DNA from: Nitrospirota bacterium
GTDB lineage: Bacteria > Nitrospirota > Nitrospiria > 2-01-FULL-66-17
Assembly: GCA_040757335.1 (NCBI GenBank)
Contig: JBFLXB010000015.1
Location: 1-64,000, forward strand
Direction of reading: 5' to 3'
Length of the DNA: 64,000 bases
Part shown: one piece after another, positions 36,724 to 59,497 of the stretch
How positions within the stretch are numbered: position 1 is the first letter of the stretch
How the letters are laid out: each line of letters opens with the position of its first letter
Notes under the pieces: model-generated
What the model saw: the letters and a program-made list of their open reading frames with translations, nothing else
What the model was told of the DNA's origin: nothing
Database searches by the model: none
Position numbers and translations under genes: made by a program

Positions 36724-37686
36724 TCAGACCGGAAAGAACACGAACGGGTACGTCACGATGATGATGCCGTCGTAAAGGTGTGGGAATTTCCACATTTTAA
36801 TGCGGCTGGCCAAGGCTTGTTCCAGTGGGGCGTGGTCCATGGTGGTAGAGACGATGCGGGTGTCAATGACCTTGCCGCTGGAGTCGATGGAGAACTCCAC
36901 CGAGATAGTGCCCTTGAGCGTGGGATTGGTGCGCAGTTCTTTGTTGTAGAGATAGATCAGGCCGTTCTTGTATTGCTCCACCACGCGGGCGATGGCGTCG
37001 TAGTCGATCGCAGCCCCTGACCCTGATCCGCCGCCTTTTAATCGAATTCCCACGCCATCGCCGAGTCGTTGCCCGCTGCTGCCCGTTCCCCCAGTTCCGG
37101 TCCCGCCCGGAATTCGAGCGAGCGCGACTTGTTGACCTTGCGCGAGCTTGGTGCGATCGCCGCTCCCGAGCGTCTTGGATTTGGCCACGGCTTTGTCCAC
37201 CAGGCCGGTGTCGCGCGAGACGGACTTGGCCACAATGGTCCGGTTGCTCTTGGTCGTGGGAGCGGTGATCAGATCCGCCGAAGACAAGGCTTGGGTCAGG
37301 CGCTGGCTCTCGATAATGTCGCTGAGCCCGCCTTTTTCTTCCTCCTCGATCAATGACGCGAGCAGCCCGCTCTGTTTGACGATCTCTCGATTCTGTTGCG
37401 CCGAGTTCTTGGGTGCGGCTGCCGGCTTTTTCTCAGCCTTGGGTTTTTCGGGCGCCTTCTTTTCTTGGGGGGCGTCCGCGACTTTGGGTTTCTCGGGCGT
37501 GGCCACGATGGGCGGGGGCTCCAGAATGAGCTTGGCGACTCGCTCGGGTAAATCCTGGATATCCGGATGCTCGGGAAGAGGCATATGCACTATGGTCACG
37601 ATCGCTGCGGCGAGGAGATAGAACCCCAGCGAGAACCGCAGGGTTTTCTTAAACAGCTCGTCGTCTGAATGCGGGACAATAATCAT
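36724..37686 (-). CDS. AgmX/PglI C-terminal domain (TonB-like) energy transducer
   Basis: 320-residue inner-membrane protein. A cytoplasmic start is followed by one membrane helix (about 17-35), a Pro/Lys/Glu-rich periplasm-spanning stretch (about 50-95), a Gly-rich linker (about 195-225) and a C-terminal domain of about 90 residues: VEQYKNGLIYLYNKELR...GTISVEFSIDSSGKVIDTRIV...IKMWKFPHLYDG...VTYPFVF. This domain is the AgmX/PglI (GltG/GltJ) type related to TonB. Its start overlaps the second exbD by 4 nt (ATGA), and it is the last gene of the 17-gene run. Likely energised by the ExbB/ExbD complex. Confidence 0.88.
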   Translation of the reverse strand: MIIVPHSDDELFKKTLRFSLGFYLLAAAIVTIVHMPLPEHPDIQDLPERVAKLILEPPPIVATPEKPKVADAPQEKKAPEKPKAEKKPAAAPKNSAQQNREIVKQSGLLASLIEEEEKGGLSDIIESQRLTQALSSADLITAPTTKSNRTIVAKSVSRDTGLVDKAVAKSKTLGSGDRTKLAQGQQVALARIPGGTGTGGTGSSGQRLGDGVGIRLKGGGSGSGAAIDYDAIARVVEQYKNGLIYLYNKELRTNPTLKGTISVEFSIDSSGKVIDTRIVSTTMDHAPLEQALASRIKMWKFPHLYDGIIIVTYPFVFFPV

Positions 37687-38198
37687 CCGCGGTCTCCGTT
37701 AGTGATCTGCTCTTTTTGAATCACGGCGAGCGCGATGTGAGGAAACCCCGTTTGGGCGCAGGTGGCCATGAGCTTTTTTAGCAACTGGAACGGAATCTTC
37801 TTGTCGCCCATGATCGTGATGTTGCCCGTGAACGTGACCGAAGACGTTTTCTGCGCCATGGCGCGAGTCCGGTCCGCCAGCCGAGTCAGCTCCTGCTTGA
37901 CCGGTTCCAGGATGTTGTCGGGCTGGGCAATGGCTTGCGCCACGCTCATGATGCGCTTGCCGTCAACAAAGATCTCCTTTTCCGTCACCAGCAGGGCCAC
38001 GGTCGCGCGGGGGGCCTTTTCCGCGGTGGACGCGGGCAGCTTCAAACCCTCGGACGACGGCAGGGCAGCCTCTTCACCGGCAATGTGCACCAGGAGAAAC
38101 AAGAGCAGGATGGTGAAAATATCCATGAGGCTGATGAGGCTCAGAGAGACCACGCCATCACGGCCCCGTCGATTGTGCAGTCGGTCTCGGAGCTTCAT
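37683..38198 (-). CDS. ExbD/TolR-like protein 2 (keeps the channel Asp)
   Basis: 171 residues: short basic cytoplasmic N-terminus, one membrane helix LISLMDIFTILLLFLLVHI with Asp26 at the place of the proton-carrying Asp of ExbD/TolR/MotB, then a periplasmic domain. The ATG at 38198 overlaps the first exbD stop as ATGA; the longer frame to 38264 is not needed. Expected to pair with ExbB at 38673 and the first ExbD as a proton-driven stator. In Myxococcus the Agl motor likewise has one TolQ and two TolR-type subunits. Confidence 0.88.
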   Translation of the reverse strand: MKLRDRLHNRRGRDGVVSLSLISLMDIFTILLLFLLVHIAGEEAALPSSEGLKLPASTAEKAPRATVALLVTEKEIFVDGKRIMSVAQAIAQPDNILEPVKQELTRLADRTRAMAQKTSSVTFTGNITIMGDKKIPFQLLKKLMATCAQTGFPHIALAVIQKEQITNGDRG

Positions 38199-38683
38199 GC
38201 GCGTTTGACCTCGCCGATGGAAATGTCCGGGAACAGTTCCTGGGACGCCCCGGCTTCGCGGCACACGTCCATGACTTCTACCAAAGACTCGTACGCCACG
38301 TCGGGCTCGCTCAGCAGGATTACCGACTTTTCCTGCGGGTGGGCGGCTTTGACCCGTTGGAGGATCGTGGTCAGGCCCGCCAGGTCGTATTTGCCGTTTT
38401 GCAGCGCGAGCCTCGTCACGTCCAGGCCGCTGCCGCGCACGCTGATGGCGTCCAGGTGCAGAGCCACGATCAGTTTGAATGGTTCCTGCGCGGGCGGGGT
38501 GGCAGCTTGCGCGCTGGAGGCGGTGGGCAGATTCAGGTCCAGTACCGCGAGCCGCGAAAACACCACACCCGTCAACAAGAACGGGATCAGCACCACCATG
38601 AGGTTCATGAACGGCGTGATGTTGAGCGAGTGGTCGTCTCGGCCCTGGCGGCGCCTCCGTCGCTGCCGCACGCTATTTCGCAT
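38195..38683 (-). CDS. ExbD/TolR-like protein 1 (channel Asp replaced by Asn)
   Basis: 162 residues. Arg-rich cytoplasmic N-terminus, membrane helix in LNITPFMNLMVVLIPFLLTG, periplasmic domain with SVRGSGLDVTRLALQNGKYDL and an ExbD-like C-terminus (SVILLSEPDVAYESLVEVMDVCREAG). Aligning TPFMN with E. coli ExbD TPFID puts Asn27 in the position of the essential Asp25. Overlaps exbB by 11 nt upstream and exbD-2 by 4 nt downstream. Confidence 0.88.
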   Translation of the reverse strand: MRNSVRQRRRRRQGRDDHSLNITPFMNLMVVLIPFLLTGVVFSRLAVLDLNLPTASSAQAATPPAQEPFKLIVALHLDAISVRGSGLDVTRLALQNGKYDLAGLTTILQRVKAAHPQEKSVILLSEPDVAYESLVEVMDVCREAGASQELFPDISIGEVKRA

Positions 38684-39395
38684 GCACCGCTCCTTTCATG
38701 CCGACCGCGCGGCGCGCCTGGTGCATCTCCGCGCCGTTGGAATACCCGTCGGCCCCGTCTTCGCGCGCGGTCTGTCCCGCGAGGTTCACGAGCCGAAGCG
38801 AGTACTCCTCCACCGTGTCGATGACGCGATTGGTGCGGCTCTGCAGGAAGCCGTACACCAACATCAGCGGCACGGCTACGATCAACCCGAACGCCGTGGT
38901 GTTCATGGCCACGGAAATGCCTTTGGCCAGCAAGGTGGCCTTTTGCGAGGGGTCGGCCAGCGAGACCGCGGTGAAGGCCTGGATCAAGCCCACGATCGTG
39001 CCCAAGAGTCCCAGCAGGGTGGCCACGTTGGCCAGGTTCGGCAAATAACCGAGCCGTGCTTCCAGTCGCGGGATGACCTGCATCATGGCTTCGTCCACAC
39101 TGCCCTGGACGTCTTCCCGCGTGAACGACCCCTTCATGCCGCGGATGCCGGCTGCGAGGACGCGATGAAGGGGCGTGCGGGACAGCGTGCAATGACGGAC
39201 CGCCTCGTCCATGCGACGACCTTGGATGGGCGACGCAATCTGGCCCCACAGCCGTTCGGCATTGGCTCCGGAGCGCGCGATGACCACGATCCGCTCCACC
39301 ACGATCGCGGTGGCCACCGCGAGCACCAGGAGGATCGGGTACATGAAGAAGCCGCCGGCCTGAAAGAAGTTGATAAACGTCGACACACTCATCAT
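38673..39395 (-). CDS. ExbB/TolQ/MotA-family proton channel protein
   Basis: 240 residues with three membrane helices. Helix 1 at about 12-32 is followed by a cytoplasmic domain. A long TM2 (YLPNLANVATLLGLLGTIVGLIQAF) carries the conserved GLLGTIxG, and TM3 (SVAMNTTAFGLIVAVPLMLVYGF) has the AMxTTAxGLxVAIP signature. An AGGAGG ribosome site precedes the ATG, whose first codons overlap the 110-residue gene by 4 nt. Forms the pentameric channel around ExbD dimers. Confidence 0.94.
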   Translation of the reverse strand: MMSVSTFINFFQAGGFFMYPILLVLAVATAIVVERIVVIARSGANAERLWGQIASPIQGRRMDEAVRHCTLSRTPLHRVLAAGIRGMKGSFTREDVQGSVDEAMMQVIPRLEARLGYLPNLANVATLLGLLGTIVGLIQAFTAVSLADPSQKATLLAKGISVAMNTTAFGLIVAVPLMLVYGFLQSRTNRVIDTVEEYSLRLVNLAGQTAREDGADGYSNGAEMHQARRAVGMKGAVHAK

Positions 39396-39724
39396 TGGAG
39401 ACCTCCTCTTGTTGCGTTGCTGGTTCCTTGCGAGAGTTGGCGTTGAAAGCGCGCGCGATCAACGGGTTCGAGTAGTTCCTGCTGAAAACTGCGTCGCAAC
39501 GGGATGTCGCCCTCGACCGCGGAGGTGTCTTTCCACGGCACCACGTACACCACGTGGGGCTTTTCCAACGTGCCCTGGATTTCCGTGCCCTCCATCAGAA
39601 AGCGCTCCACGTTGGCACTCGAACCGCCTGTCCTCGTTTGCGTGGGAGCGGTGTCAGCGGCCCATGACGTCTCGACCACGAGCACCAGCGTCGCGAGTCC
39701 GAGTGCGGCGACGGGAAGCCTCAC
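39392..39724 (-). CDS. Small exported hypothetical protein of the exbBD operon
   Basis: 110 residues. A signal peptide (LPVAALGLATLVLVVETSWA, cleavage near residue 22) is followed by a short soluble domain (VERFLMEGTEIQGTLEKPHVVYVVPWK...RSFQQELLEPVDRARFQRQL). I do not recognise a family. 4-nt overlaps on both sides place it firmly in the operon between a TPR lipoprotein and exbB. Confidence 0.78.
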   Translation of the reverse strand: MRLPVAALGLATLVLVVETSWAADTAPTQTRTGGSSANVERFLMEGTEIQGTLEKPHVVYVVPWKDTSAVEGDIPLRRSFQQELLEPVDRARFQRQLSQGTSNATRGGLQ

Positions 39725-40359
39725 GGGGTCTCCCTGGCGCGTTCAACCCGCTTGTGCAGCGCGGCGATCCAGATCGTGACCTCTTCGCGGCCTTCCCCGC
39801 CGGATGCCAAATAGGTTTCGTAGTGCTGGATCGCCTTCTCGGGCTCATTGAGATAGAGGTCGTACAGCACCGCGAGATTGTAGGTGGCGTCTCGGAAATC
39901 CGGCGCGACATCAAGGGCTCGGCGGTACGCGTCTTCAGCCTGACGAAACTCGCCCTGTTCCCGCAGCGCCAGGCCCAGGTTGTAGTACGCCTCGGGGTAT
40001 TGGGGTTGAATCTCGATCGCCTGTTGATACGCGGCTACGGCTTCCGGCAGGAGGCCCAACCGCTTGTAGACCACGCCGAGGTTATTGTGAAACACGCTCA
40101 CGTGGGGATAATTCGTCCGCAGGTTCTCGAATACGGTGCGAGCTTCCTTGAACTTCCCGTCCTCCACCAGGGTGGTGCCTTTCTGGAACGACAAGAGGAC
40201 CTGGTCCAGTTTTTGGGCCTCGGCTGCGCGGGCCTCGTCGCTCCGTGCGGAGGCTGGAGCCGGTGTGGGCGATGCCGGCGGCAACGTGGCTCGGGTGCAG
40301 CCGGCCGCAGCCGCCAGCAGCAGCCACAGGATCATTTTCTGTTGAGGGCGCGTCGTCAT
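39721..40359 (-). CDS. TPR lipoprotein (GltE/AglT-like context)
   Basis: 212 residues. Lipobox LLAAAAGC (Cys21), a Pro/Ala/Ser linker, then about three to four tetratricopeptide repeats (FHNNLGVVYKRLGLLPEAVAAYQQAIEIQPQ; AYYNLGLALREQGEFRQAEDAYRRAL; ATYNLAVLYDLYLNEPEKAIQHYE). Probably anchored in the outer membrane facing the periplasm. Start and stop overlap neighbours by 4 nt each. TPR lipoproteins accompany TonB2-type and Agl-Glt systems. Confidence 0.88.
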   Translation of the reverse strand: MTTRPQQKMILWLLLAAAAGCTRATLPPASPTPAPASARSDEARAAEAQKLDQVLLSFQKGTTLVEDGKFKEARTVFENLRTNYPHVSVFHNNLGVVYKRLGLLPEAVAAYQQAIEIQPQYPEAYYNLGLALREQGEFRQAEDAYRRALDVAPDFRDATYNLAVLYDLYLNEPEKAIQHYETYLASGGEGREEVTIWIAALHKRVERARETP

Positions 40360-43190
40360 CGTTCGGCCGTGAGCAGTCTGTCAATGATCGACGAGAGCGG
40401 TTGAGCCGTCAACGTCTCCACATCGATATTGGACGTGATCCGCTCGGTTCGCTCCGGCCGCTTGTAGAGCGCGGGCCGCAATTCGGCCAGCCGGTCATAG
40501 CTCTTTTTGACCCACTCGTTGTAGGCCCCGGGTTGGCTCGAGGCCCGCTGCACGTTGCTGGCATAAGCGTGGATCGCTTTCTCTTCGAACGGGAAGGCCT
40601 TTTCCTCCAGTTGGAACTTGTACTCCTCGACTTGGTCGGGAGTCAGCGTTTTGGGCAATTCGGCTTCGAGCAGCGCAGTCTTGAAGTGCTCGAACACCTC
40701 GCCCAGACGATAGGCGGACGTGGCGACCACGTCGAAGTAGCGGGACTCCGCGGCGCGGGTGTAGAGCGTGATCGTCTTGTCCAATGCCTGGGTCTTGCTC
40801 TTGAGATTCTTTTTGAATGGCTCCTTCAGCGCGATCTTCTTGAGCGATCGGAACGACTCCTCGGCTTGTTGGAACACGGCTTGTGCCGCGAACACGGTGC
40901 CGGGGGCCTCGTGTTCCACCCTGACAAAGAGTGCGAGCGCTTCTTTGTTTTTCCCCTGGCGCTGGCGGATGACGGCCATTTTCCACAGGCCTTCCGGCGC
41001 GTCCGCGTGTTTGGGGAAGCGCTCCGTGAATTGCGCGAACGCTGCGAAACTCTTCTCCCACTGGGACGCCTTTTCATAATCAAGCCCGGCGGTCCAGAGA
41101 ATCTGGGGGGCCTGCGTCTGATGCTGGGGCATCTTGGCCGCGGCTTCAAAGGCTTCGGCTGCCTGGAGCCACTGTTCGCCTTGCTCGTGGATCAACGCGA
41201 TGTGGAGCGCCGCCTTGGCGCCCAGGTCGGACTTGGGATCACGCTGGAGCAGTTGCTGGTAGGCCACGATGGCTTCTCCCGGCTGTTTGAGCGTTTCGTA
41301 TAGGGTGGCCGCCTCGAATAGTGCGCCGGCCGCCAGCGGGCTGTCGGGAGCTTCCCGGGAAATCCCGGCGAATGTCTTGGCTGCCTCGCCGAGTCGATCG
41401 GCTTTCCTGTGCCGCTCGGCCTGTTTGTACATGGCTGCGGCCAGTAGATCGCTCATCTCACGTCGTTGTACGCTGTCCGTTGTCGGGAGAAGCGACAGGG
41501 TGAGCGCATATGCGGCGCGAGCCTCATCGAAGCGGCCTTGCCGCATGTACGAGTGGGCGATCAGCTTCTGCGCCGTGGCGGTGCCCGTAAATTTTGGATA
41601 CCGGGCCAGAACCTGCCCGAGCACCTCTCGAGCCTCCGCGTCGCGTTGTTGCTCGAACAGGATCTCGCCGGACTTGAGCAGGACCGTCGGGGTTCTGGTG
41701 TCGTTGGGGAACTGCTCGGCGAACCGTTTGGTCAACGCGACGAACCGCTCTTGGCCCTTTTTATCTGGAAGCTTCTCCGCGGCCACGATGGCGGAGTACG
41801 CGGGCTCTTTGTCCACCGGCACCCCGGCGTAGCCGTATGCCACTGCTTCGTACGCCGCGGCTGCCAGGGCATACTCTTGGAGCGCCAACAGAGACTCGGC
41901 GTAGAGCAGATGCACTTCTCGCGTCTCCTTTTCCACGGGGAACTCTGCGAGGAACTGGCGATACCACCTGACCGCTTCCCGGTGATCGTCGGGCTGTTTG
42001 CTCTCTCGCGCACCGGCGTGGGCCGAGATTCCGAGTCGGTACAAGCTGTCTTTGACCAAGGGGCGCGAACGGCCGCGGCTGGTTTCGTCGTTGGCCCGAT
42101 ACCAGGCGCCGGTGCTGAGGTAGCTGTTGACGAGTTCAACTCTGGCGTTGCGAGCGGCGTGGGTGTCCTTCTGCTTCTCGTACGATTCGATCACGTACGA
42201 CGCGAAGATCGGTGCCATGCCGTGCATAGGGTGTTCCCGGACAAAGGTTCGATACGTGTCGATGGCCTTCTGAGTTTGGCCCTCGGCCGCGTACTGGTTC
42301 CCCATCATGAGATAAAGGTCTTTTTCGTAGACGGCTGAACCGTGTTCCTTGAAGTAAACGGCCATGGGACCGGGCCCACCCACACTGCGGAACGAGATGG
42401 CTACGTACGTCAGCGCCTCCCACACCAGAGAACCGGGATCAGCGGCCAGGTCCTGTTGATCAGCGTTCTTGCGGTCGACCAACTGTAGAAAATTCTCGAT
42501 CGCGTGTGGATAGGCTTGCAAGTTGAAATAGGTCCACCCCAGTTTGTAGCCCGCCTTATCCTGCAGGAACGGGTCATCCATCGAGATGGCTTGCTCATAC
42601 GCCTGGGCCGCCTGTTCGAACCGACGACTGTCGAACTCGAACTCGCCGATTCGAAAGTACGCTTCCTGGCGATGGGGGCTGGTCGGATAGTCGGTGACCA
42701 GTCGCGTCAGCAGCGGCTGGGCCAGCTCGCGGCGACCAGTCTCCGAGTAGGCGCGTGCTAGCGAATAGAGCACGTGATCCTGACCGTGGAACGTGGGATC
42801 GGTGCGGAGCAATTCTTGGTAGGCTTGGATCGCCTGGTCATAGTTCACCAGCGGCGGAGGACCATCCGGCCGGTTCTCATAGGCGTCCATCTCGGCGAGA
42901 AACCGTTGGTGCGCGCGCTCCAGGTAGAGATCCCCCAAGCGTTTGAGGGCTTCGGATCGCAGGTCCTGATCCGCCTCGCCGTACTGCTTGAGAAACTCTT
43001 CATACCCAGTGATGACGTCCGCCTTCCGAATGACCGGCGCAGCCTGCTCGACCACCGGCGCTTTGGGTTGAGGGCTCGCGGCTCTCACCGGAAATTGAGC
43101 CGTTGCGGCGCCGTTGGTGCCGGCGCATGCTGTCAGCAGCAACGCGGCGCCCAGATACCATGTTGGACGGATGGCGATGAAACGCGTCAT
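40356..43190 (-). CDS. Large TPR lipoprotein
   Basis: 944 residues, the largest product in the window. Signal peptide with lipobox LLLTAC (Cys22). Almost the whole mature protein is tetratricopeptide-like helical hairpins (for example YFRIGEFEFDSRRFEQAAQAYEQAI, AQKLIAHSYMRQGRFDEARAAYALTL, AALHIALIHEQGEQWLQAAEAFEAAAK, LWKMAVIRQRQGKNKEALALF), more than 15 in number. An extended periplasmic scaffold is likely. 4-nt overlaps with the TPR genes on either side. Comparable large TPR proteins (GltI/AgmK) occur in the Myxococcus Glt complex, but sequence-level orthology is not claimed. Confidence 0.88.
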   Translation of the reverse strand: MTRFIAIRPTWYLGAALLLTACAGTNGAATAQFPVRAASPQPKAPVVEQAAPVIRKADVITGYEEFLKQYGEADQDLRSEALKRLGDLYLERAHQRFLAEMDAYENRPDGPPPLVNYDQAIQAYQELLRTDPTFHGQDHVLYSLARAYSETGRRELAQPLLTRLVTDYPTSPHRQEAYFRIGEFEFDSRRFEQAAQAYEQAISMDDPFLQDKAGYKLGWTYFNLQAYPHAIENFLQLVDRKNADQQDLAADPGSLVWEALTYVAISFRSVGGPGPMAVYFKEHGSAVYEKDLYLMMGNQYAAEGQTQKAIDTYRTFVREHPMHGMAPIFASYVIESYEKQKDTHAARNARVELVNSYLSTGAWYRANDETSRGRSRPLVKDSLYRLGISAHAGARESKQPDDHREAVRWYRQFLAEFPVEKETREVHLLYAESLLALQEYALAAAAYEAVAYGYAGVPVDKEPAYSAIVAAEKLPDKKGQERFVALTKRFAEQFPNDTRTPTVLLKSGEILFEQQRDAEAREVLGQVLARYPKFTGTATAQKLIAHSYMRQGRFDEARAAYALTLSLLPTTDSVQRREMSDLLAAAMYKQAERHRKADRLGEAAKTFAGISREAPDSPLAAGALFEAATLYETLKQPGEAIVAYQQLLQRDPKSDLGAKAALHIALIHEQGEQWLQAAEAFEAAAKMPQHQTQAPQILWTAGLDYEKASQWEKSFAAFAQFTERFPKHADAPEGLWKMAVIRQRQGKNKEALALFVRVEHEAPGTVFAAQAVFQQAEESFRSLKKIALKEPFKKNLKSKTQALDKTITLYTRAAESRYFDVVATSAYRLGEVFEHFKTALLEAELPKTLTPDQVEEYKFQLEEKAFPFEEKAIHAYASNVQRASSQPGAYNEWVKKSYDRLAELRPALYKRPERTERITSNIDVETLTAQPLSSIIDRLLTAER

Positions 43191-45118
43191 TGGGTCAAGA
43201 CGTCCATGATGTGAACCTGGCTGAGCCGAGCCACGGCGGCCATGGCCTCCATCTGGCCGCTGCGTTGATCCACCGCTTTTAGTAGCAGGGCCTGCAACGG
43301 CGGCAGTAGTTCGGCTCGGAGGTCGATCAGCTCCCCCCGATACGCGACCAGGTCCTGTCGAATGGCCTGGATACGCTGACGGAACTGGCTGAGTTTCGTG
43401 TCCAAGCCGTTGATGGAGTCAACCAGCGCGCGTTGGTCGTGGTCCGCCTGTTCCAGGTCGATTTGCACTTGTATGATCGCGCGCTGAAGGTCGTCGCGGC
43501 GTCCGGGAACCTCGGTAAGGATGGTCCAGAGCCGCTCGCCCTGGAGCATACTGAGCCAGCGGTCCGCGTTGTTCCATTGCGCCTTGAGATCCTCGATCTG
43601 TAATCGATCCGACTGACCACTGGGCCTGAGCCGCGCGATGGTCTCGCCCACCGCGCGGCTCTGACCACGGGCCAGGGCCAATTGGCTCAAGACCGAGGGG
43701 TCGCTGCCGAGCGCCCATGCCTCGGCGGTTTCGTGTTGGACGGCCTGGTCGAGCGCGGCCTGCAACTGGTGCTCACGCTGTCGGAGCGGCGTGACAGGGT
43801 TTTGGGTGAGAAACCCCCGGACGGTCGGCACACGATCCCGGAACACGGCCTCGCGGTGATCGACCATGACCTGGAACACATCCGAGTCAGCGAGCTTGCG
43901 GGCCAGGTACTGCTCAATGGTCCCCAGTTCTCCGTACTGTCTGACCCAGAACCGGAGGCCGTCGTCGTCCAATAGCGGGCCGATCGGGCTGTCCAGCACC
44001 GCGGTCATATCCGTCAGCAACCCGCTGAGGCGATCGCGGTCTTTGATGAGCCCCCGCATTGTATCCAATGCTTGTCGCTCGCGGCGATACGTGTCGAGCG
44101 CCTTGCCGTACGCGTGAAACGCCTCACCGCGAGCGCCCATGCGGTCGTAACAATGGCCGATCGTGGTCAGGGCTTCGAGGGCATACGGATGATTGGGCGC
44201 TGCGCGAAGGAGGGTCAGAAACGCGGCGAGGGACTCGGCGTACCGCTGCTGATACAGGTGAACCCACCCCGCGCCGAACACCGCGTCAGGGTAAAACGGG
44301 CTCGTCTGGGTGATCGAGGCGAACGCCGGTAATGCCTCGTCGTATCGTCCGGTTTCTGTGAATAGTAAGCCCAGGGTCAGACGGCTCTTTTCAGCCAAGG
44401 CCTGCAGTAGCGCGTCGTCCTCAGGTTGCAGGCCCCCCAACTCCTCGAGCATGCGGCTCGCTTCGTCCACGTTCGCCAGTTGGGTATGTGATTTGGCGGA
44501 CGTGAGCTGGGCAAAGGGCCGGTAATCGCTGGAACCGGGAATGGCGGTCATCACGTCGAGGGCCCGTTCGAAATTTCCGAGCGCGTAGTGGCTCATCCCG
44601 GCCAGGTACGCGGCGTGATCCATTGACGCGAATGCGGGGTCGGGCGTGAGTCGTTCAAACGTGGAAACGGCGGCTTGGTAGAGCGCACGCGAGTATTGGA
44701 GCCGCTCGATCAACAACAGCACCTGGTTGCGGTCCTGACCGGAAGGGAACGCTGATACCAGTTGGTCGAAGATCACCGTGGCGGGGCGATGCATACCCCA
44801 GGCCACGTACAGACTACCTCGAAGCAGTCTCACGTGGTTGAGCGTGTCCGTGTCCGTGTGTACGGTCTCCTCCAGAAGTTTCAATCTGGTGGCGGACGTC
44901 AGATAATCATCGAGGAAAAAGTGATAGTAGGCTTCCCTTTTCAGCGCGTCGGTGGTGGACCCGGATGTTCGCGGTTCCGCGCCGGATGCCGGCGCAGCCT
45001 CGGTCACACCCGTGGGTTGGGCTTTCGGAGGCTGGGGAAGGTTGATCGACGGGTCGGCCCACGCGTGCGCCGACCACAGTCCCAGCGCGAAGAAGAGGAT
45101 GTTACCGCCACGTTTCAT
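43187..45118 (-). CDS. TPR periplasmic protein with C-terminal coiled coil
   Basis: 643 residues. Signal peptide (ILFFALGLWSAHAWA), low-complexity linker to about residue 55, TPR-like repeats to about 320 (FGAGWVHLYQQRYAESLAAFLTLLRAAPNHPYALEALTTIGHCYDRMG is among the clearest), then a long helical region ending in coiled coil (about 530-620: IIQVQIDLEQADHDQRALVDSINGLDTKLSQF). Overlaps the 182-residue gene by 17 nt and the large TPR gene by 4 nt. Probably a periplasmic scaffold. Confidence 0.85.
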   Translation of the reverse strand: MKRGGNILFFALGLWSAHAWADPSINLPQPPKAQPTGVTEAAPASGAEPRTSGSTTDALKREAYYHFFLDDYLTSATRLKLLEETVHTDTDTLNHVRLLRGSLYVAWGMHRPATVIFDQLVSAFPSGQDRNQVLLLIERLQYSRALYQAAVSTFERLTPDPAFASMDHAAYLAGMSHYALGNFERALDVMTAIPGSSDYRPFAQLTSAKSHTQLANVDEASRMLEELGGLQPEDDALLQALAEKSRLTLGLLFTETGRYDEALPAFASITQTSPFYPDAVFGAGWVHLYQQRYAESLAAFLTLLRAAPNHPYALEALTTIGHCYDRMGARGEAFHAYGKALDTYRRERQALDTMRGLIKDRDRLSGLLTDMTAVLDSPIGPLLDDDGLRFWVRQYGELGTIEQYLARKLADSDVFQVMVDHREAVFRDRVPTVRGFLTQNPVTPLRQREHQLQAALDQAVQHETAEAWALGSDPSVLSQLALARGQSRAVGETIARLRPSGQSDRLQIEDLKAQWNNADRWLSMLQGERLWTILTEVPGRRDDLQRAIIQVQIDLEQADHDQRALVDSINGLDTKLSQFRQRIQAIRQDLVAYRGELIDLRAELLPPLQALLLKAVDQRSGQMEAMAAVARLSQVHIMDVLTQ

Positions 45119-45650: not shown

Positions 45651-46693
45651 GGTTGCGAAGTCCTTTGTGTCGTGGTGGTGGCGCCGAGGCCCAAGCCCGT
45701 GAGCCCCGACGAGAGAAACATCTTTCCGTTACGGTCGATAATGATGGCGTCTACGTCTTCCAATTGTTCGATGAGCGCGAGACCGCGTTCAGGGCCCAGC
45801 ACGAACACGGTGGTCGACAACGCGTCGCTGGTGGTGGCGTCGGGTGCCAGGATGGTTACACTGCGGCAGAGGGTTGCCGGGTAGCCGGTCCTGGTATCGA
45901 GGATGTGGTGATACCGCACGTCGTCCTTGATGAAAAATCGCTCGTAGTCGCCGGACGTTGAAATCGCCTGGTCCTCCAAGGGCAACACCGCGAGGATGCC
46001 GTCCGCCTTGTCCGGATCACGAAGGCCGACGCGCCACACGTCGTCGCCGTTTTTGCCCCTGATCAGCGTGTCGCCCCCGGCCATGACCATTGCGTTGCGG
46101 ATTCCGTGCGCGTTGAGCACGGTCATGGCCCGGTCCATGGCGTACCCCTTGCCAATGCCCCCGAGTCCGATTTCCATCTGAGGAGACGGAAGAAAGACGG
46201 TAGATTGTTCATCGTTGAGTTGAATCTTCCGATAGTCCACGAACGGGAGTTGAGCGTTCACCGCGTCAGGGGAGGGGAGCACGGCGTTCCTGAAGTTCCA
46301 GAGCTTACCGACCGATGCGAATGAGATGTCGAACGCGCCGTCGGAGACCTCCGAGAAAACGAGCGATCGTTTGATGACACCGAACAATTCGCGACCCACC
46401 GGTACGGGCGCCACACCGGCCTGTTGGTTGATTCGGGACAGCTCGGTGTCCGACATGAAGTTGCTCATCAGTCGTTCCAGGCGGGACACCTCGGCGAACG
46501 CCGCGTTGACGGCGTGCTGAAGGTGGTCCCGATCGTCACCGACGGCTTTGACGATCACCTGGGTGCCCATCAACACACGTTCCTCGGAGACCAACAAGGG
46601 TCGTTCCGTTGGTGGTGAGGCCGCGGCCCTCTCGGCGAGGGCGCTCAGCAGCAATCCGCTAGTAAGTAAAGCCAAGGCTTGTGTGTAAGACAT
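45647..46693 (-). CDS. apbE: FAD:protein FMN transferase (ApbE)
   Basis: 348 residues with a signal peptide, so periplasmic. Attaches FMN covalently to Thr/Ser of target proteins, using FAD and Mg2+. Shows LMGTQVIVKAVG near the start, SRLERLMSNFMSDTELSRINQQAG, FDISFASVGKLWNF, IGLGGIGKGYAMDRAM, NAMVMAGGDTLIRGKN, the AISTSGDYERFF block, YHHILDTRTGYPA and ATTSDALSTTVFVLG with the metal-binding Asp/Thr. Overlaps the DUF3570 gene by 35 nt. I found no canonical flavinylation motif in the operon, so its target is open. Confidence 0.95.
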   Translation of the reverse strand: MSYTQALALLTSGLLLSALAERAAASPPTERPLLVSEERVLMGTQVIVKAVGDDRDHLQHAVNAAFAEVSRLERLMSNFMSDTELSRINQQAGVAPVPVGRELFGVIKRSLVFSEVSDGAFDISFASVGKLWNFRNAVLPSPDAVNAQLPFVDYRKIQLNDEQSTVFLPSPQMEIGLGGIGKGYAMDRAMTVLNAHGIRNAMVMAGGDTLIRGKNGDDVWRVGLRDPDKADGILAVLPLEDQAISTSGDYERFFIKDDVRYHHILDTRTGYPATLCRSVTILAPDATTSDALSTTVFVLGPERGLALIEQLEDVDAIIIDRNGKMFLSSGLTGLGLGATTTTQRTSQP

Positions 46694-47807
46694 GGGCCCT
46701 CTGCGAGTACAGTGCGCCGGTGCGCGGATCCGTGAAGTTGTCGTAGTCGTACATCAAGAAACTATAGCTGACCTGAACCGAGAGATTTTCCAGACCGTGC
46801 CAGTGAAACCCCCGGGGTTTGTATTTGAGAGATGCGCCAATCCACTGGTCTGAGAATCGCGAGAGCTCCTTGTCCCGGGCCCGGTAGATCTGGGTTGAGG
46901 GGACTCGGTCGCCGTAGAAACTGGCTTGCCCCTGACGATAATATCGATAGAACGAACCGAGGAGCCACTCGTTCCGAACGTACCGTTGATACTCCACCTG
47001 GCCGGTGTGCGAGGCGACGGCGAACGTGTCCTGGTAGTAGCGATAGTCAAATTTCACGGAACTGCGCTGTCCGATCGAGAGCTCTCCCGCTGAATCGGGG
47101 ACGAAACCGAAACCGGTGCGAAGCACCCATGCGTGGCCGGTTCGGGAGTCCGGATAGTTTTCGGGCGCCAACCCGCCACTGTCCAGGATCACGCTTCGAT
47201 ACGGGTTGTTGAGGAATCCGGAGTCGGCTGTGCCTTCGTAATTCACTTGAACCAACCATCGCGGACTCAACGATTGGGTGACGCCTGCGGAATAGATCGT
47301 GCGGTTTGCGTCCTCCTGGCCGAAGGATGGGTCGCCGTTCTTCTCCACCGTGTCCCAAGATCGTGCGAATCTGAGGTTGAGCGTCGTGTTTTTCTCGAAT
47401 AGGTCGTGCGCCATGGCAACCGCGATAGTGTTCGAGGTGTAGTCGGACTCGTGGCTCGTGGTGTAGGTAATTCCCGTGAGCACGTCGCTGTGCAGGACGT
47501 CGGTGCCCACGGTATATTCTGTCCGGCGTTCCTTGTAGGGGCTCGCTTGGGTGACGACGTCGATGGACGCCGAGCTGACCAAGTCGATCCGGGCGCCTGC
47601 TTTCACGGACATCCGGTTGAGCAGTTCCTTCTTGACGATCATGGCTGGTCCCTGGACCATGATGCCGCCGCCGTTGTAGAGGTTGTAGCCTACTGCCGTG
47701 TCGTCCTGGGGTGGTTCTACGGCCTCGGCCGATCCCAGCACACCGGCCAACAGCAAAACGCTCCCTGCGGTTCCAATGCGCGCGTGCACAATCACCGGCA
47801 GCCGCAC
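46659..47807 (-). CDS. DUF3570 outer-membrane protein
   Basis: 382 residues: signal peptide (LLLAGVLGSAEA), then beta-strands throughout, ending HTSLGFTY with a terminal aromatic, consistent with an outer-membrane barrel. Diagnostic DUF3570 features include the early YNLYNGGGIMVQGPAMIVKKEL, DVVTQASPYKERR and YQRYVRNEWLLGSFYRYYRQGQASFYGD. DUF3570 genes are usually found beside ApbE, DUF4266 and a thioredoxin, exactly as here. Overlaps DUF4266 by 16 nt. Confidence 0.9.
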   Translation of the reverse strand: MRLPVIVHARIGTAGSVLLLAGVLGSAEAVEPPQDDTAVGYNLYNGGGIMVQGPAMIVKKELLNRMSVKAGARIDLVSSASIDVVTQASPYKERRTEYTVGTDVLHSDVLTGITYTTSHESDYTSNTIAVAMAHDLFEKNTTLNLRFARSWDTVEKNGDPSFGQEDANRTIYSAGVTQSLSPRWLVQVNYEGTADSGFLNNPYRSVILDSGGLAPENYPDSRTGHAWVLRTGFGFVPDSAGELSIGQRSSVKFDYRYYQDTFAVASHTGQVEYQRYVRNEWLLGSFYRYYRQGQASFYGDRVPSTQIYRARDKELSRFSDQWIGASLKYKPRGFHWHGLENLSVQVSYSFLMYDYDNFTDPRTGALYSQRAHVLHTSLGFTY

Positions 47808-48022
47808 CCTCCTCCACTTCCGCTAAATCCGCCGCGAGATCCTTCCAGGACCTCCTGGACGTGTACATGCCACTCGGTTTTGAGCGCATCCGGGTCGAAC
47901 AGCATGATTTCGTTCGCCAGATACTCCCGTTCCCAGGGCTTCACGCCGGCGCAGCCGGCCAAGGTCGCACTCATCAGCAAACCCCAGAGCAAACCCCAGA
48001 GAATGACGATCTTCACGTTCAC
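47792..48022 (-). CDS. DUF4266 small lipoprotein
   Basis: 76 residues. Lipobox TLAGC (Cys24), then the family core KPWEREYLANEIMLFDPD, a His-containing helix (EWHVHVQEVLEGSRGG) and a Gly/Ser-rich tail ending GGGCGCR with two Cys. The Cys tail could be redox active or bind metal, and a TlpA-type thioredoxin gene sits 4 nt upstream. Role unknown. Confidence 0.9.
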   Translation of the reverse strand: MNVKIVILWGLLWGLLMSATLAGCAGVKPWEREYLANEIMLFDPDALKTEWHVHVQEVLEGSRGGFSGSGGGCGCR

Positions 48023-48026
48023 CGCA

Positions 48027-48539
48027 CTACTCCTTCAGCAGTGCCCGGATTTCTGCCTCGTAGCGGGCAGGCTCGGCCGGGCCGAATCCCCAGTGTACGT
48101 GGCGAAGCGAGCCGTCCTTGGCGACCACGAACGTGGTGGGCATGGTGCGGATCTGATAGACGTTCGAGGTCTTCCCGGCGGGGTCGAACAGCACGGGAAA
48201 CGAGAGACCGAGAGCCGCGCTCATCTGCGCGCCGTGGGAAGAGACCTTGTCGATATTCACGCCCAGGATTTCCAGCCCCAGGTTCTGGTATCGGCGGTAC
48301 AAGGTGTTGAAAAAAGGCAGTTCTTCTTTACACGGGGTGCACCAGGTCGCCCAGAAGTTGACGAGCACGACGCGGCCGCGCAATTCGCTGAGTTTCACGT
48401 TGCGGCCGGTCGAGCTTTTCAGCGTGAAATCCGGAGCCTTCTTCAGCCCGCCCGAGACCTCCGACAGACCCGTGGAATTGAACAGCAGCACGGCCGACAA
48501 CGAAACAACCAGTAACGCGAGGGAGCGAGGTAGCGACAT
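48027..48539 (-). CDS. TlpA/ResA-family thiol-disulfide oxidoreductase
   Basis: 170 residues. An N-terminal hydrophobic segment (signal peptide or anchor, about 6-24) exports a thioredoxin-fold domain with active site WATWCTPC (Cys67/Cys70), GKxSELRGRVVLVNFWA start and cis-Pro in RTMPTTFVV. It probably reduces periplasmic disulfides: apocytochrome c haem motifs or the DUF4266 Cys pair are plausible clients given the neighbouring haem-motif genes (inference). Gaps of 4 and 8 nt to neighbours. Confidence 0.93.
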   Translation of the reverse strand: MSLPRSLALLVVSLSAVLLFNSTGLSEVSGGLKKAPDFTLKSSTGRNVKLSELRGRVVLVNFWATWCTPCKEELPFFNTLYRRYQNLGLEILGVNIDKVSSHGAQMSAALGLSFPVLFDPAGKTSNVYQIRTMPTTFVVAKDGSLRHVHWGFGPAEPARYEAEIRALLKE

Positions 48540-48547
48540 GGCGGTCC

Positions 48548-49195
48548 TCAGAAAAACACGGCGAGGGCGATGGTGCCCTCGAGGTTGTAGGTGAGTGTCT
48601 TCTCGCCGGTGACATCGGTCTCAAACATGTGGAGCCTGAAGTCGGGTCTGACGCTGAACCAATCCGTGACGAACAGTTTGTACCCGGTCCCCACCTCCAT
48701 GCTGAAGTGGTTCCGCTCGTCCATGTTGACTTGGCCCAAGCCCGCGACCAAATAGATGGTGGAGTTGATCGTCCGTTTTCGCGTGAGAAAGATCTGACCC
48801 GGGAAGAGGTCGTACGAAGCGCCGACGCTCCAGTACCACAGGTCGTCGTTCACCAACAACGAGCGACCGGTCAGTTGGCGAAAGGCGGTCTGGTCCACCT
48901 GCGATCTCGCGTAGCTGGCTTCGAACGCGATGTCTTCGGTGACGTGGTAGGTGAGTCTCAGCCCGTACACACCCGACGCGCCGAAGCCGTCGGGGGCGTA
49001 GATTCCGGCATACGGGCCCAATTCGAACCGCTCGGTGTCGAGGCGGGCTTCCTTCAGAGGGCGATCCTCGGCCGGTGGTTTGATGACGGGTTCCTCCTCG
49101 ATCGGAAGATCCTGGCCGTGAGCCAGCGCTCCGAAGTGGAATCCGGCACCCATTACCACGCCGATCACCGTCATGATCCACATTCTCCTCGTCAT
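48548..49195 (-). CDS. Outer-membrane beta-barrel protein (OMP_myx_plus-like)
   Basis: 215 residues with signal peptide (about 1-27), a Pro/Glu-rich acidic segment (IEEEPVIKPPAEDRPLKEARLD) and an eight-strand-like barrel: FELGPYAGIYAPDGFGASGVYGLRLTYHV, FEASYARSQVDQ, INSTIYLVAGLGQVNM and a final LEGTIALAVFF. The pattern is that of the outer-membrane beta-barrel domain family found in myxobacteria and relatives. 9 nt from the SH3-barrel gene. Confidence 0.85.
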   Translation of the reverse strand: MTRRMWIMTVIGVVMGAGFHFGALAHGQDLPIEEEPVIKPPAEDRPLKEARLDTERFELGPYAGIYAPDGFGASGVYGLRLTYHVTEDIAFEASYARSQVDQTAFRQLTGRSLLVNDDLWYWSVGASYDLFPGQIFLTRKRTINSTIYLVAGLGQVNMDERNHFSMEVGTGYKLFVTDWFSVRPDFRLHMFETDVTGEKTLTYNLEGTIALAVFF

Positions 49196-49204
49196 CGTCG
49201 AAGG

Positions 49205-49972
49205 TTAGAAGCGGAACGACAGGCCCGCGCTGTATTCCTGGAATTCCCGCGTCCGTTCGGTGCTCATGAAGAGGGTGAAGTGCCGGATATCCACTCGTCC
49301 TTCCAGGTTCCTGAACAGCGGAACCGCGAACCCAGCGCCGGCGTACGCCGCGGGAAACGTTCCTGACTCGACGTTCACCAGGAGACTCGTCGGGCTTACG
49401 TGCGCCACCCCGCCCCCGATGGTCCCGCTGAGGGCCAACCACCGAGCGCGCCACGGGGTCACGACCATGCCTCCGTGATACAGTTGGGTCCCGCCCAGGT
49501 CCCCCGACACGAAGCCTCCGTTCGCCTCCAAGGCCAGAGAGTCGATGAGGGTATAGGTGACGCGCACATACAGGGCGGGTTCTCCGGAAAACGTGCCGGC
49601 GCTCCATCCCAGCGCGGTTCTCCCCGCGACGATTTCATCGAAGATCCGCTCCGTCCAACTCTTCCGGTATCCTGCTGCCAACAGCGTCTTTTCGATCTCG
49701 CGCCGATGAGCCCATCCCTCGGTGCCGTTGCGGAGACGGATCTCGTACCAGTCCACGCGTCGCTTCAGCAACGCGATGGTTTCGCCCTTTTCCGCCACGT
49801 AGAATACGGGATAACTGCTTCCCGGCCCGGTATGGATCTCCAGAAAGGGCTCGATGATCACCGCTTCTCGGAAGACGGGATCCTTCCCAAACACGGCTGT
49901 GGGGCTGATCACCAGCCCCACGCACGCGATGCCGACGAAGAGTCGCCATCTGGCGGTCGCTCGCACGCTCAA
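49205..49972 (-). CDS. SH3-domain plus outer-membrane beta-barrel protein
   Basis: 255 residues. Signal peptide to about 29, an SH3b-like domain (FLEIHTGPGSSYPVFYVAEKGETIALLKRRVDWYEIRLRNGTEGWAHRREI, about 40-92), then a barrel with alternating strands ending YSAGLSFRF. The SH3b could bind peptidoglycan, linking wall and outer membrane (inference). The TTG start overlaps the preceding stop as TTGA. Neighbouring barrel at 48548 has the same C-terminal fold type. Confidence 0.83.
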   Translation of the reverse strand: MSVRATARWRLFVGIACVGLVISPTAVFGKDPVFREAVIIEPFLEIHTGPGSSYPVFYVAEKGETIALLKRRVDWYEIRLRNGTEGWAHRREIEKTLLAAGYRKSWTERIFDEIVAGRTALGWSAGTFSGEPALYVRVTYTLIDSLALEANGGFVSGDLGGTQLYHGGMVVTPWRARWLALSGTIGGGVAHVSPTSLLVNVESGTFPAAYAGAGFAVPLFRNLEGRVDIRHFTLFMSTERTREFQEYSAGLSFRF

Positions 49973-50433
49973 ATCGGGCTCTGAATCCAGCCCAGGATCG
50001 CGACGTAGTCCGGATCAGCAGTACTCAAAAAAATGTCTCCCCCCAAATGCTGAACGCCTCCCGCGGCCAGCGCCAATGGTTTGGTGAGCAGCTTGCTGGT
50101 GGTCGGGTTCGCGAGGTTGGCCATCCCCGCGGCCGAATCTTGATTGGCGAGCAACTCGTCAGCGGAACACGAGTTGCCCGAGCAATCAAAGATCCGAAAG
50201 CTTCCGCCGGGCCCGCCTGAGTTGGGGTTGCTCTTGTCCCGGTAGTGGCACCCGGCCTGCGAGCACCCCCGAGCGTCGAAAATGGGCTGAATCGTAGCGG
50301 CGAACACGGTCTGGTCCAACTGGCCGATCGCCTCCTCCCCGCCGGGCTCGACCTGGCCGCATCCCGCGGTGAGGAGCGCAACCGTCGCCGCCACAAGTAT
50401 AGCCCCCTTCCCTGGTTTGCCGGCCCTTCTCAC
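49969..50433 (-). CDS. Small lipoprotein with cytochrome-like CX4CH motif
   Basis: 154 residues from a GTG at 50433 that overlaps the upstream stop as GTGA. Lipobox LTAGC (Cys25). VFAATIQPIFDARGCSQAGCHYRD carries a CX4CH motif (57-63) instead of CXXCH; the end DPDYVAILGWI resembles the last domain of the 811-residue protein encoded just upstream (VFEATIQPILQQRCGSCH...DADYTTILNWI). It thus looks like a stand-alone copy of that domain. Haem attachment to CX4CH is possible but unproven. Two further Cys (FDCSGNSC) may form a disulfide. Confidence 0.8.
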   Translation of the reverse strand: MRRAGKPGKGAILVAATVALLTAGCGQVEPGGEEAIGQLDQTVFAATIQPIFDARGCSQAGCHYRDKSNPNSGGPGGSFRIFDCSGNSCSADELLANQDSAAGMANLANPTTSKLLTKPLALAAGGVQHLGGDIFLSTADPDYVAILGWIQSPI

Positions 50434-52865
50434 TGCGCCGCAATGATCCAGTTGAGAATGGTGGTGTAGTCCGCGTCCGTGGTCGCCAGGGGAGCGGGTG
50501 TAACCGGCTGGCCGTTCACCAGCATCGGCACCACGCCCGTGCCTTTCACGAACAACAGGCTGTTGGCCGGATTGGTCACGTTGACGCGAGCGGCCGTCGC
50601 GCCGAAGTCGCCCTCGGGATCTCCGGTCAACACAAAATTGCTGGCACCGCCCGCCACGTGGCAGCTCCCGCAGCGTTGTTGCAGGATGGGCTGGATCGTG
50701 GCTTCGAACACGGCCTCGTCCAGATTCGCGCGGCCCGGGTTGGTGATGACGTCGTAGTTGCTGAACTGGGCGCCCAGATCGATCCACTCCACCATGGTTC
50801 GCTTGTCTTGAGCGGCCAACATTCCGGCATGGTTGTTCGCGTCTGAGGCCGGCAGGCTCAGCGACGAACGGAGTTCCTCGCCGAAGATGCGCTCGACCAG
50901 GTGGCTTTGCCGCGATTCGCCGGGTACCACGAGCTCGGACCCGTTCATGTCGCCCTCGAGCAGGGTTGTATACGAGATGGGGAATCCCAGTCCCGACAGA
51001 TCGCCGCTCAAATCAAGATTCCCGCTCGGTGTGGTCGATGAGTGGCACGACACGCACTCCGCGTCGAAAATCGTCTGCACGTGATCGGTGTAGTCGATCA
51101 CTGCAATCGTTGGTGCGACCAGCGTTGACGGCACCTGGTTGAGCGCGATCGAGTCGGCCGCTGCCCGCTGAGGCTGACCGCGGCGGGGAGAGTGGCAGCC
51201 ATTGCAGGTCCGGTTCTCGCCGGGCCTGACTTGCAACCAGTTTTCCTTCACCTTGAATGAACGCCCTTGGCTGTCCACGACGTGAAGCGTTAACGACGTG
51301 TCGGCAGGAACCGTGACCCGGAATGAACCGTCCGCAGCCACCGGGGCGTAGCCGAGAATCTTCTGTCGCTCGAACTCGGTCAAGCCCATGTCCTCCACCC
51401 CCACGCCGGGTTGGCTCGGCACCGCTTGGACGATCCGCACCTGCTTCACGACCTGCAACGAGGGGTTACCGGTCAGCGTGGCGAAGTCGATGTTGCCGTT
51501 GCCGTCCCTAGGAATCGTCACGCCCAGGACGGCGTTGGACAGGGCGCGGTTGGCTTCCGAGTCATACACACTGGCGGCGGCGAGCACGCCGGTGGTTCCG
51601 AACGATTGACGGTTCGCCAGCTTCGTGGGTTTGGCGGTGGGAATGTCGGTGGCGGCGGCCACGGCCATCAACGGCACCGGCTCGACGTAGACCCGCTGGG
51701 TGCCGGCATCAGGAACCTTGATGGGTTTGAGCGTGCCGTCCGCGTTGTTGAGCATCCAGATGCCGTAGCGGGGGTCCTCACCCTCGGTGACAACTCCCGT
51801 ATCCTCATCTTCCATGTCCTCGACGACTTTGCCGGTCGAGTAGGAGACCAGGTACCGGTCGGTGCCGTCGGGAACCGGGTACGCGCCGTGATACCGGCCC
51901 ACGTCGGACGCTTCACGTCCGGTGGGAATCACCTGGGTACCGGTCAATTGCAACGACGAGGTGTTGGCGTTGTCGGCTTCAGCCACCACGTTCACCACGC
52001 CCAGGGCTCCGCCTTCGAACGTGCCGGTGAGCGGCATCATGGTGCCGATCATGCGTCCGTCCGAGAGCTCGCGCAGATCCAAAAACGAGTTCACGCCGGA
52101 ATGTGATCCGTATTTGACGAAGAGATCCGTGCCGTCCGGCTCCATGAAGAACATCGGAAACTTGTTCTCTCCGCCCAAGTGCTCCCACCGGCTGAACGCG
52201 ATGGTTCCGTCCCGCAGAACAATGGGGTTGCGATCGTGGCTCTGGTTGAACGAGATCTGAACCACCTCCCCGCTGTCGCAGGCCGGTTGGCCAGCGAGGA
52301 CCGGCTGGGTGCGGTCCAGCATGTGAAGGACCGTGGATCGCCGGCGTTCGTACTCGTCGAGGTGCCCGGGGCGGTCCGACGAGAACACGATGCGGCCATC
52401 CGGGAGATACTGGGGGTCCACTTCATTGTCCGCACCGCACGTGAGCTGCACCGGCGCGCTCACCCGCGTGCCGTCCGCGTTCACCTCGACTTCATACAGG
52501 TGCCACCGGTCCGCGCTGCTGGTCCGCATCGCAAACACGACGCGGAACTGCTCTTCGGTGGTTTGCAGAAAGATTTCGGGATCCGACACATCACCCACGC
52601 CGTTGGTCAGGTCACTGGTGAGGTTGCGGAGCGTGCCTGAGGGCGTTGCGGGTACAAGCGTCATCAGATCGCCGCCGGCCTCGAAGCGAATGGGATCCAA
52701 CGGATCACCCATGGCGTCCACGCTGCGCGCGGCGAACACGATGCCCGGGATGTCGTCCTGGGCAATCGGACTTTCCCCGGTAGAGCACGACCACACCACC
52801 AGCCCGCCAACCAGGGCCACTATGGCTCCGAACATCCATCCGAACACTGGTGATTGCGTTTTCAT
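50430..52865 (-). CDS. HzsA-related multihaem c-type lipoprotein with PD40 propeller
   Basis: 811 residues. Lipobox VVWSC (Cys27). Residues about 60-400 contain TolB/PD40-like propeller repeats (DPQYLPDGRIVFSSDRPG, RDGTIAFSRWE). The middle is the domain shared with the hydrazine synthase alpha family (DGSFRVTVPADTSLTLHVVD...NWLQVRPGENRTCNGCHSPR). Haem motifs: CNGCH at 554, CVSCH at 604, CGSCH at 732. Exported, probably outer-membrane-anchored electron carrier or oxidoreductase; not evidence for anammox, since HzsB/C are absent. GGAGG 5 nt before ATG. First gene of the 17-gene run. Confidence 0.85.
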   Translation of the reverse strand: MKTQSPVFGWMFGAIVALVGGLVVWSCSTGESPIAQDDIPGIVFAARSVDAMGDPLDPIRFEAGGDLMTLVPATPSGTLRNLTSDLTNGVGDVSDPEIFLQTTEEQFRVVFAMRTSSADRWHLYEVEVNADGTRVSAPVQLTCGADNEVDPQYLPDGRIVFSSDRPGHLDEYERRRSTVLHMLDRTQPVLAGQPACDSGEVVQISFNQSHDRNPIVLRDGTIAFSRWEHLGGENKFPMFFMEPDGTDLFVKYGSHSGVNSFLDLRELSDGRMIGTMMPLTGTFEGGALGVVNVVAEADNANTSSLQLTGTQVIPTGREASDVGRYHGAYPVPDGTDRYLVSYSTGKVVEDMEDEDTGVVTEGEDPRYGIWMLNNADGTLKPIKVPDAGTQRVYVEPVPLMAVAAATDIPTAKPTKLANRQSFGTTGVLAAASVYDSEANRALSNAVLGVTIPRDGNGNIDFATLTGNPSLQVVKQVRIVQAVPSQPGVGVEDMGLTEFERQKILGYAPVAADGSFRVTVPADTSLTLHVVDSQGRSFKVKENWLQVRPGENRTCNGCHSPRRGQPQRAAADSIALNQVPSTLVAPTIAVIDYTDHVQTIFDAECVSCHSSTTPSGNLDLSGDLSGLGFPISYTTLLEGDMNGSELVVPGESRQSHLVERIFGEELRSSLSLPASDANNHAGMLAAQDKRTMVEWIDLGAQFSNYDVITNPGRANLDEAVFEATIQPILQQRCGSCHVAGGASNFVLTGDPEGDFGATAARVNVTNPANSLLFVKGTGVVPMLVNGQPVTPAPLATTDADYTTILNWIIAAQ

Positions 52866-59473: not shown

Positions 59474-59497
59474 GGGTGATCCTAGTGTGGAGGAAAT

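Follow-up and report, generated by a model that had tools for sequence, protein, structure and literature searches.

The 64,000-nucleotide (nt) window analysed here (positions 1 to 64,000 of contig JBFLXB010000015.1 in the Nitrospirota assembly GCA_040757335.1) carries a 17-gene operon on the minus strand, at 36724-52865, in which genes for haem, flavin and thiol proteins are followed by those for a motor and transducer of the Agl/Glt type, the machinery best known from Myxococcus. All 17 open reading frames (ORFs) are present at the coordinates given by an original prediction, which had described them as consecutive minus-strand genes with gaps of at most 9 nt; rechecking the ORFs and junctions upheld this description and amended two starts. 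The junction distances in gene order are -4, -4, 9, 8, 4, -16, -35, -4, -17, -4, -4, -4, -4, -11, about -4 and -4 nt, the largest intergenic gap being 9 nt, and no internal terminator or promoter signal above chance was found in the operon. The start of the CX4CH lipoprotein gene was corrected to GTG 50433, which overlaps the stop of the HzsA-like gene by 4 nt. That of ExbD2 is most likely ATG 38198, 4 nt within ExbD1 and matching the orthologue starts, although the longer ORF reaches 38264; the ExbD1/ExbD2 junction, second to last in the series, is accordingly -13 nt with the start used in the junction calculation and -4 nt with the preferred one. All 17 proteins were searched against Pfam and NCBIfam models with curated cut-offs, and the product names proposed earlier (HZS_alpha, SH3_3, TlpA/AhpC-TSA, DUF4266, DUF3570, ApbE, TPRs, MotA_ExbB and two ExbD) held. 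In gene order, with lengths in amino acids (aa), the operon encodes:

50430-52865, minus strand: HzsA-related lipoprotein, 811 aa, lipobox Cys27 (PF18582, 1.5e-18)
49969-50433, minus strand: small CX4CH lipoprotein, 154 aa (BLASTP to residues 714-807 of the HzsA-like protein, E 5e-7)
49205-49972, minus strand: exported SH3 domain plus small barrel, 255 aa (SH3_3, 5e-11; C-terminal part OMP_myx_plus, 2e-6, below cut-off)
48548-49195, minus strand: outer-membrane beta-barrel of the OMP_myx_plus family, 215 aa (TIGR04565, 132 bits, cut-off 60)
48027-48539, minus strand: TlpA/ResA-like exported thioredoxin, WCTPC, 170 aa (PF00578, 1.7e-31; ResA NF002854, 122 bits, below cut-off)
47792-48022, minus strand: small DUF4266 lipoprotein, 76 aa, C-terminal GGGCGCR (PF14086, 2e-16; CXC tail in 9 of 9)
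46659-47807, minus strand: DUF3570 protein, predicted outer-membrane barrel, 382 aa (PF12094, 6e-29)
45647-46693, minus strand: exported ApbE FAD:protein FMN transferase, 348 aa (PF02424, 5e-85)
45102-45650, minus strand: exported protein of 182 aa, modelled as an N-terminal coiled coil plus beta-sandwich (no family match)
43187-45118, minus strand: TPR protein a (TPRa), 643 aa, GltC-like in position and size (TPR matches; GltC model 15 bits only)
40356-43190, minus strand: TPR lipoprotein b (TPRb), 944 aa, GltD-like in position and size (TPR matches; YbgF/CpoB-type repeats)
39721-40359, minus strand: TPR lipoprotein c (TPRc), GltE-like, 212 aa (GltE NF033758, 1.3e-11, below cut-off)
39392-39724, minus strand: p110, exported, 110 aa (no family match; found in most core modules examined)
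38673-39395, minus strand: ExbB/TolQ-type proton channel subunit, AglR-like, 240 aa (PF01618, 4e-28)
38195-38683, minus strand: ExbD1, in the AglQ position, 162 aa (PF02472, 2e-17)
37683-38198, minus strand: ExbD2, in the AglS position, about 171 aa (PF02472, 4e-14)
36724-37686, minus strand: TonB-like transducer with an AgmX/PglI C-terminal domain, GltG-like, lacking an FHA domain, 320 aa (NF033768, 86 bits, cut-off 40; GltG NF033760, 5e-29, below cut-off)

In Myxococcus the genes aglR, aglQ, aglS, gltC, gltD, gltE and gltG define a core complex (Luciano et al., 2011, PMC3169522) that was also reported from Gamma-, Beta- and Deltaproteobacteria and Fibrobacteres, with an unknown role outside gliding and spore coating; the word Nitrospirota does not occur in the text of that paper. 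The profile search with Glt/Agl and OMP_myx models that the original prediction had proposed identified the TonB-like protein as AgmX/PglI (NF033768) and the 215-aa barrel as OMP_myx_plus (TIGR04565), both above their curated cut-offs, and one ExbB/TolQ and two consecutive ExbD/TolR are encoded in a row, with all core genes at one locus. The proposed likeness to the Agl-Glt machinery thus holds for the core, namely TolQ, two TolR, a GltG-like TonB protein, three TPR proteins and an OMP_myx barrel, but not for the parts tied to gliding (GltI, GltJ and the FHA domain of GltG). Within the operon there is no 4000-aa TPR gene that could stand for the giant GltI, the GltJ model reached 39 of the 450 bits of its cut-off among the operon proteins, and the GltG equivalog scored 101 against 650 bits with the match confined to model residues 343-645, so that the full gliding machinery was not found. 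The GltE and GltC models (E 0.008 for the latter) both stayed below cut-off and, because TPR repeats match many models, the three TPR proteins are only putative counterparts of GltC, GltD and GltE. The aspartate that carries protons in ExbD proteins is replaced by asparagine in the ExbD1 of 21 of 24 aligned sequences, including that of the source operon (aligned loci: source operon, L057-L062, L090-L104, L137-L143 and L153), while ExbD2 keeps the Asp in all homologues aligned. The substitution D28N in AglQ paralyses the Myxococcus motor (PMC3858216); if AglQ D28 and the ExbD1 Asn site correspond, these motors would run on one Asp.

Among 58 genomes related to the source genome, the operon is carried by nine, belonging to three families (f1, f6 and f8). 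The 17-gene order was found again in the eight besides the source, which brings it to at least nine Nitrospirota species, and is collinear from the HzsA-like to the TonB-like gene, although some loci are clipped by contig ends and the end of one operon (genome G017) lies on a second contig (L153). Protein identity across the nine operons is about 37-80%, and the TPRa orthologues (37-66% identity) all adjoin DUF4266. One of the carriers is filed as Candidatus Manganitrophaceae. The flanks beyond 36724-52865 differ by family: f1 has a MATE gene upstream, and f8 has enolase, gatB and gatA on the upstream side with an Era-like GTPase gene on the downstream side. Because the flanks vary while the block stays, the limits of the operon could be fixed independently of the original prediction, and because the 17-gene order recurs while the outside genes differ between families, the block is not due to chance.

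The two halves appear to have been inherited together. Orthologues of the HzsA-like protein (E <= 1e-229) occur in eight of the 396 Nitrospirota genomes covered by the whole-genome searches, these being the same eight that carry a close orthologue of the 182-aa protein. Rather than being split between two separate loci, which the original prediction had named as the finding that would count against it, all eight were found in this operon only, and the redox half (2290 columns) and the motor half (2164 columns) yield trees of identical topology with 100% support throughout. In the TPRb and TonB-like trees all redox-linked motors fall into a single 100/100 clade, in which the one row without a label (L153) belongs to the G017 operon as its second contig piece; this one clade points to one joining event. 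The simplest history suggested by these trees is a single joining of core and redox block followed by common inheritance. In a cross-species peptide scan, which may miss distant operons, two exact patterns from the 182-aa protein returned six loci, all from Nitrospirota, and a plasmid search gave no match for TPRb and only weak Bacteroidota matches for the HzsA-like protein. These data bear on whether an Agl/Glt-type machine and a surface redox enzyme might simply be co-transcribed and never touch. Many Nitrospirota do have the core without redox cargo, and DUF3570/ApbE clusters exist without the core; against this, gene order is kept over deep divergence with genes overlapping by a few nt, the joining appears to have happened once, HzsA-like orthologues are never seen without the core, and barrels of the OMP_myx type, a class seen in Glt machines, lie inside the redox half. 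We regard co-regulation without contact as quite unlikely.

The core module also occurs with other neighbours. TPRb relatives (E < 1e-40) were found in 35 of the 396 genomes; their neighbourhoods repeat the order TPRa-TPRb-(TPRc)-p110-ExbB-ExbD-ExbD-TonB while the adjoining genes differ, often comprising other cargo or none; some of these modules are flanked by housekeeping genes and some lack ExbB and ExbD. The source genome itself has a second complete core (L090, G000:C7:24000-43999) with an unrelated 314-aa lipoprotein upstream. At two loci from another class of the phylum (L094 and L097), the core module or a homologue of the 182-aa protein adjoins giant OmpA-domain proteins of about 1700 aa. 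In genome G004 (L104:277-1228), genes for a cupredoxin and a cytochrome c7-like lipoprotein precede the core, where the contig stops; judged from its sequence, this set appears to be a second, independent redox cargo of the core module. The core has thus been seen to swap cargo between the redox set, OmpA giants, cupredoxin/cytochrome and none. Homologues of the 182-aa protein also adjoin cores with other cargo. This protein matched no family, and its predicted fold (coiled coil and beta-sandwich; predicted local distance difference test, pLDDT, 76) had no significant match in the PDB; it is a possible adaptor.

The HzsA-like lipoprotein is 66-79% identical in six orthologues and contains three conserved CXXCH motifs (554, 604 and 732), the second being CX3CH in the L058 orthologue. 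Its alignment to hydrazine synthase alpha (5c2v, 4e-17) spans the middle domain and takes in the two CXXCH sites of 5c2v, but the protein differs in its lipoprotein anchor and in a third, C-terminal haem domain beyond hydrazine synthase alpha. The 154-aa CX4CH protein is a relative of this C-terminal domain (residues 714-807), and its motif is conserved in eight of eight orthologues. Hydrazine synthesis was rejected as a function, given the extra domain and a score of 95 bits against the cut-off of 800 for the equivalog NF052339; no hydrazine synthase beta or gamma was found among the 17 operon genes with Pfam and NCBIfam. Manganese oxidation, considered in view of the carrier filed as Candidatus Manganitrophaceae, was likewise rejected as the main role, since the presumed Manganitrophus genomes (f9/g16) have neither the 182-aa nor the HzsA-like protein. 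A paper on the Mn-oxidation genes of the family makes no mention of hydrazine synthase, TonB or ApbE.

The genes for the thioredoxin-like TlpA, DUF4266, DUF3570 and ApbE are adjacent, and the earlier remark that ApbE, DUF3570 and DUF4266 cluster elsewhere agrees with the TlpA-DUF4266-DUF3570-ApbE cluster published by Meheust et al. (2021, PMC8238504). In a relative, DUF3570 has been shown to be modified by ApbE, with flavin attached at two [ST]GA[ST] motifs (PMC8238504). In the proteins studied here, D-x-[VI]-SSAS (DLVSSAS in the source) and T-Q-[AG]-S stand in place of [ST]GA[ST] in nine of nine, one having TQGS, while the ApbE signature motifs are retained in the orthologues. No other motif of this kind is fully conserved in any of the 17 proteins, which makes SSAS the leading candidate for the flavin acceptor. 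The DUF3570 model has 14 long strands but low confidence (pLDDT 54, predicted template modelling score, pTM, 0.59), and its top Foldseek matches were OmpG and FadL-type porins; it suggests, with low confidence and as a fold class only, an outer-membrane barrel.

A MATE transporter gene with the same orientation (53139-54506) lies 273 nt upstream of the operon; it is also found upstream in a second genome (G001), and a 56% identical MATE gene ends a TlpA-DUF4266-DUF3570-CcdA-ApbE cluster in G019 (L053). Two MATE proteins, Bfe and YeeO, are flavin exporters (PMC5655446), and the transporter at 53139-54506 may supply FAD to ApbE. It was not counted as part of the operon, since genes like it are frequent in the class and its position is therefore weak evidence. 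Further upstream on the same strand, two histidine kinase genes (57089-60586; a Cache/HAMP/PAS kinase and a second kinase) encode what are, by sequence, possible regulators.

Taken together, the operon probably encodes one trans-envelope machine, in which an Agl/Glt-type motor driven by the proton motive force acts on a surface electron-transfer cargo. Sequence comparison identifies the motor with its GltG-like transducer, the TPR set, the redox set and the joint inheritance of the halves; the effect of the motor on the cargo and the path of the electrons we infer by analogy. Proton flow through ExbB/ExbD would drive the GltG-like protein, which would pull on the outer-membrane TPR lipoproteins as AglRQS does via GltG in Myxococcus. 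The cargo would be a surface electron-transfer complex, with the haem lipoprotein docked by the 182-aa protein and both small barrels, and with the DUF3570 barrel, carrying covalent FMN from ApbE, relaying electrons between the haem lipoprotein outside and TlpA/DUF4266 thiols or cytochromes in the periplasm. The motor would then serve to position, cluster or gate this complex at the cell surface. More specifically, and only tentatively, the motor might move or gate this outer-membrane complex to give powered contact with an external redox partner. One machine is favoured by the gene order shared between nine genomes with differing flanks, by the matching trees of the two halves and their single joining, by the HzsA-like orthologues being found in this operon only, by the AgmX/PglI and OMP_myx_plus matches, by the likeness in composition to the published core, by the flavinylation of DUF3570 in a relative and its barrel-like model, and by the second core with redox cargo (L104).

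Several observations weigh against it. The operons of two genomes (G007 and G012; loci L059 and L060) lack ExbB-ExbD-ExbD, with p110 directly before the TonB-like gene, and must borrow a motor or manage without one; each genome keeps a full second core elsewhere (L102 and L100), so that a motor may be shared between complexes, as AglRQS is. All nine DUF3570 proteins have lost the strict flavinylation motif, which makes flavin attachment uncertain, and the DUF3570 model is of low confidence. Furthermore, motor and redox proteins are linked here at the level of genes, and protein locations were assigned from signal sequences only.

The presence of a TonB-like transducer with ExbBD could also mean assimilatory uptake, the motor opening a barrel to import a substrate (a metal chelate or an organic compound) first reduced or oxidised by the surface haem and flavin proteins. 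DUF3570 clusters sometimes hold iron transporter genes (PMC8238504) and the DUF3570 model resembles FadL/OmpG channels, yet no TonB-dependent receptor family is represented among the 17 proteins in Pfam or NCBIfam, for which reason the earlier comparison with TonB2 systems of Vibrio was of no help, and the transducer comes with an AgmX/PglI tail and the Agl-Glt TPR set, not the Ton-system set. Uptake is therefore unlikely. We consider it improbable that the motor is only an assembly device, needed to export or flavinylate the redox proteins or to insert them into the outer membrane and dispensable afterwards: ApbE and TlpA are indeed maturation enzymes, and Agl-Nfs builds a coat without being part of it (PMC3858216), but lipoproteins and barrels elsewhere rely on Lol and Bam with no dedicated motor, and DUF3570 clusters elsewhere need none (PMC8238504).

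Returning to a motor acting on surface redox proteins, the core whose function in many non-gliding bacteria was unknown in 2011 has here a counterpart tied to a defined biochemical cargo across deeply diverged genomes. This yields a concrete hypothesis for its action, extends the Agl/Glt-type core to Nitrospirota and suggests DUF3570 as an outer-membrane flavoprotein barrel. The original prediction knew of no described system with the full set of genes; a core complex matching the motor half has been known since 2011 (PMC3169522) and the flavin block since 2021 (PMC8238504), and what is new is the welding of the redox half to the motor. If the proposed action is borne out, a mechanical motor can power extracellular electron transfer.

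Compared with the published flavinylation cluster (PMC8238504), all four parts are present and adjacent, whereas here no DsbD lies alongside, SSAS/TQAS motifs are found and the set is coupled to a motor and haem lipoproteins. With the Agl-Glt core (PMC3169522) the operon shares one TolQ, two TolR, a GltG-type transducer and three TPR proteins at a single locus, as well as the gltD-gltE-small gene-gltG order of the Myxococcus cluster G1, with the motor genes inserted before gltG; it differs in its occurrence in Nitrospirota, in the haem/flavin/thiol cargo, in the 320-aa transducer without FHA domain and in the usual Asn at the proton-carrier site of ExbD1. The contact between AglR and GltG in Myxococcus is experimental, and the proton motive force there drives Glt or Nfs complexes over the surface (PMC3169522, PMC3858216). 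As in the Agl-Nfs spore-coat machine (PMC3858216), a modular motor would have its output set by its cargo, which is a polysaccharide coat there and a redox complex here, and the operon may be the first case of a gliding-type motor working on an electron-transfer complex instead of slime or spore coat.

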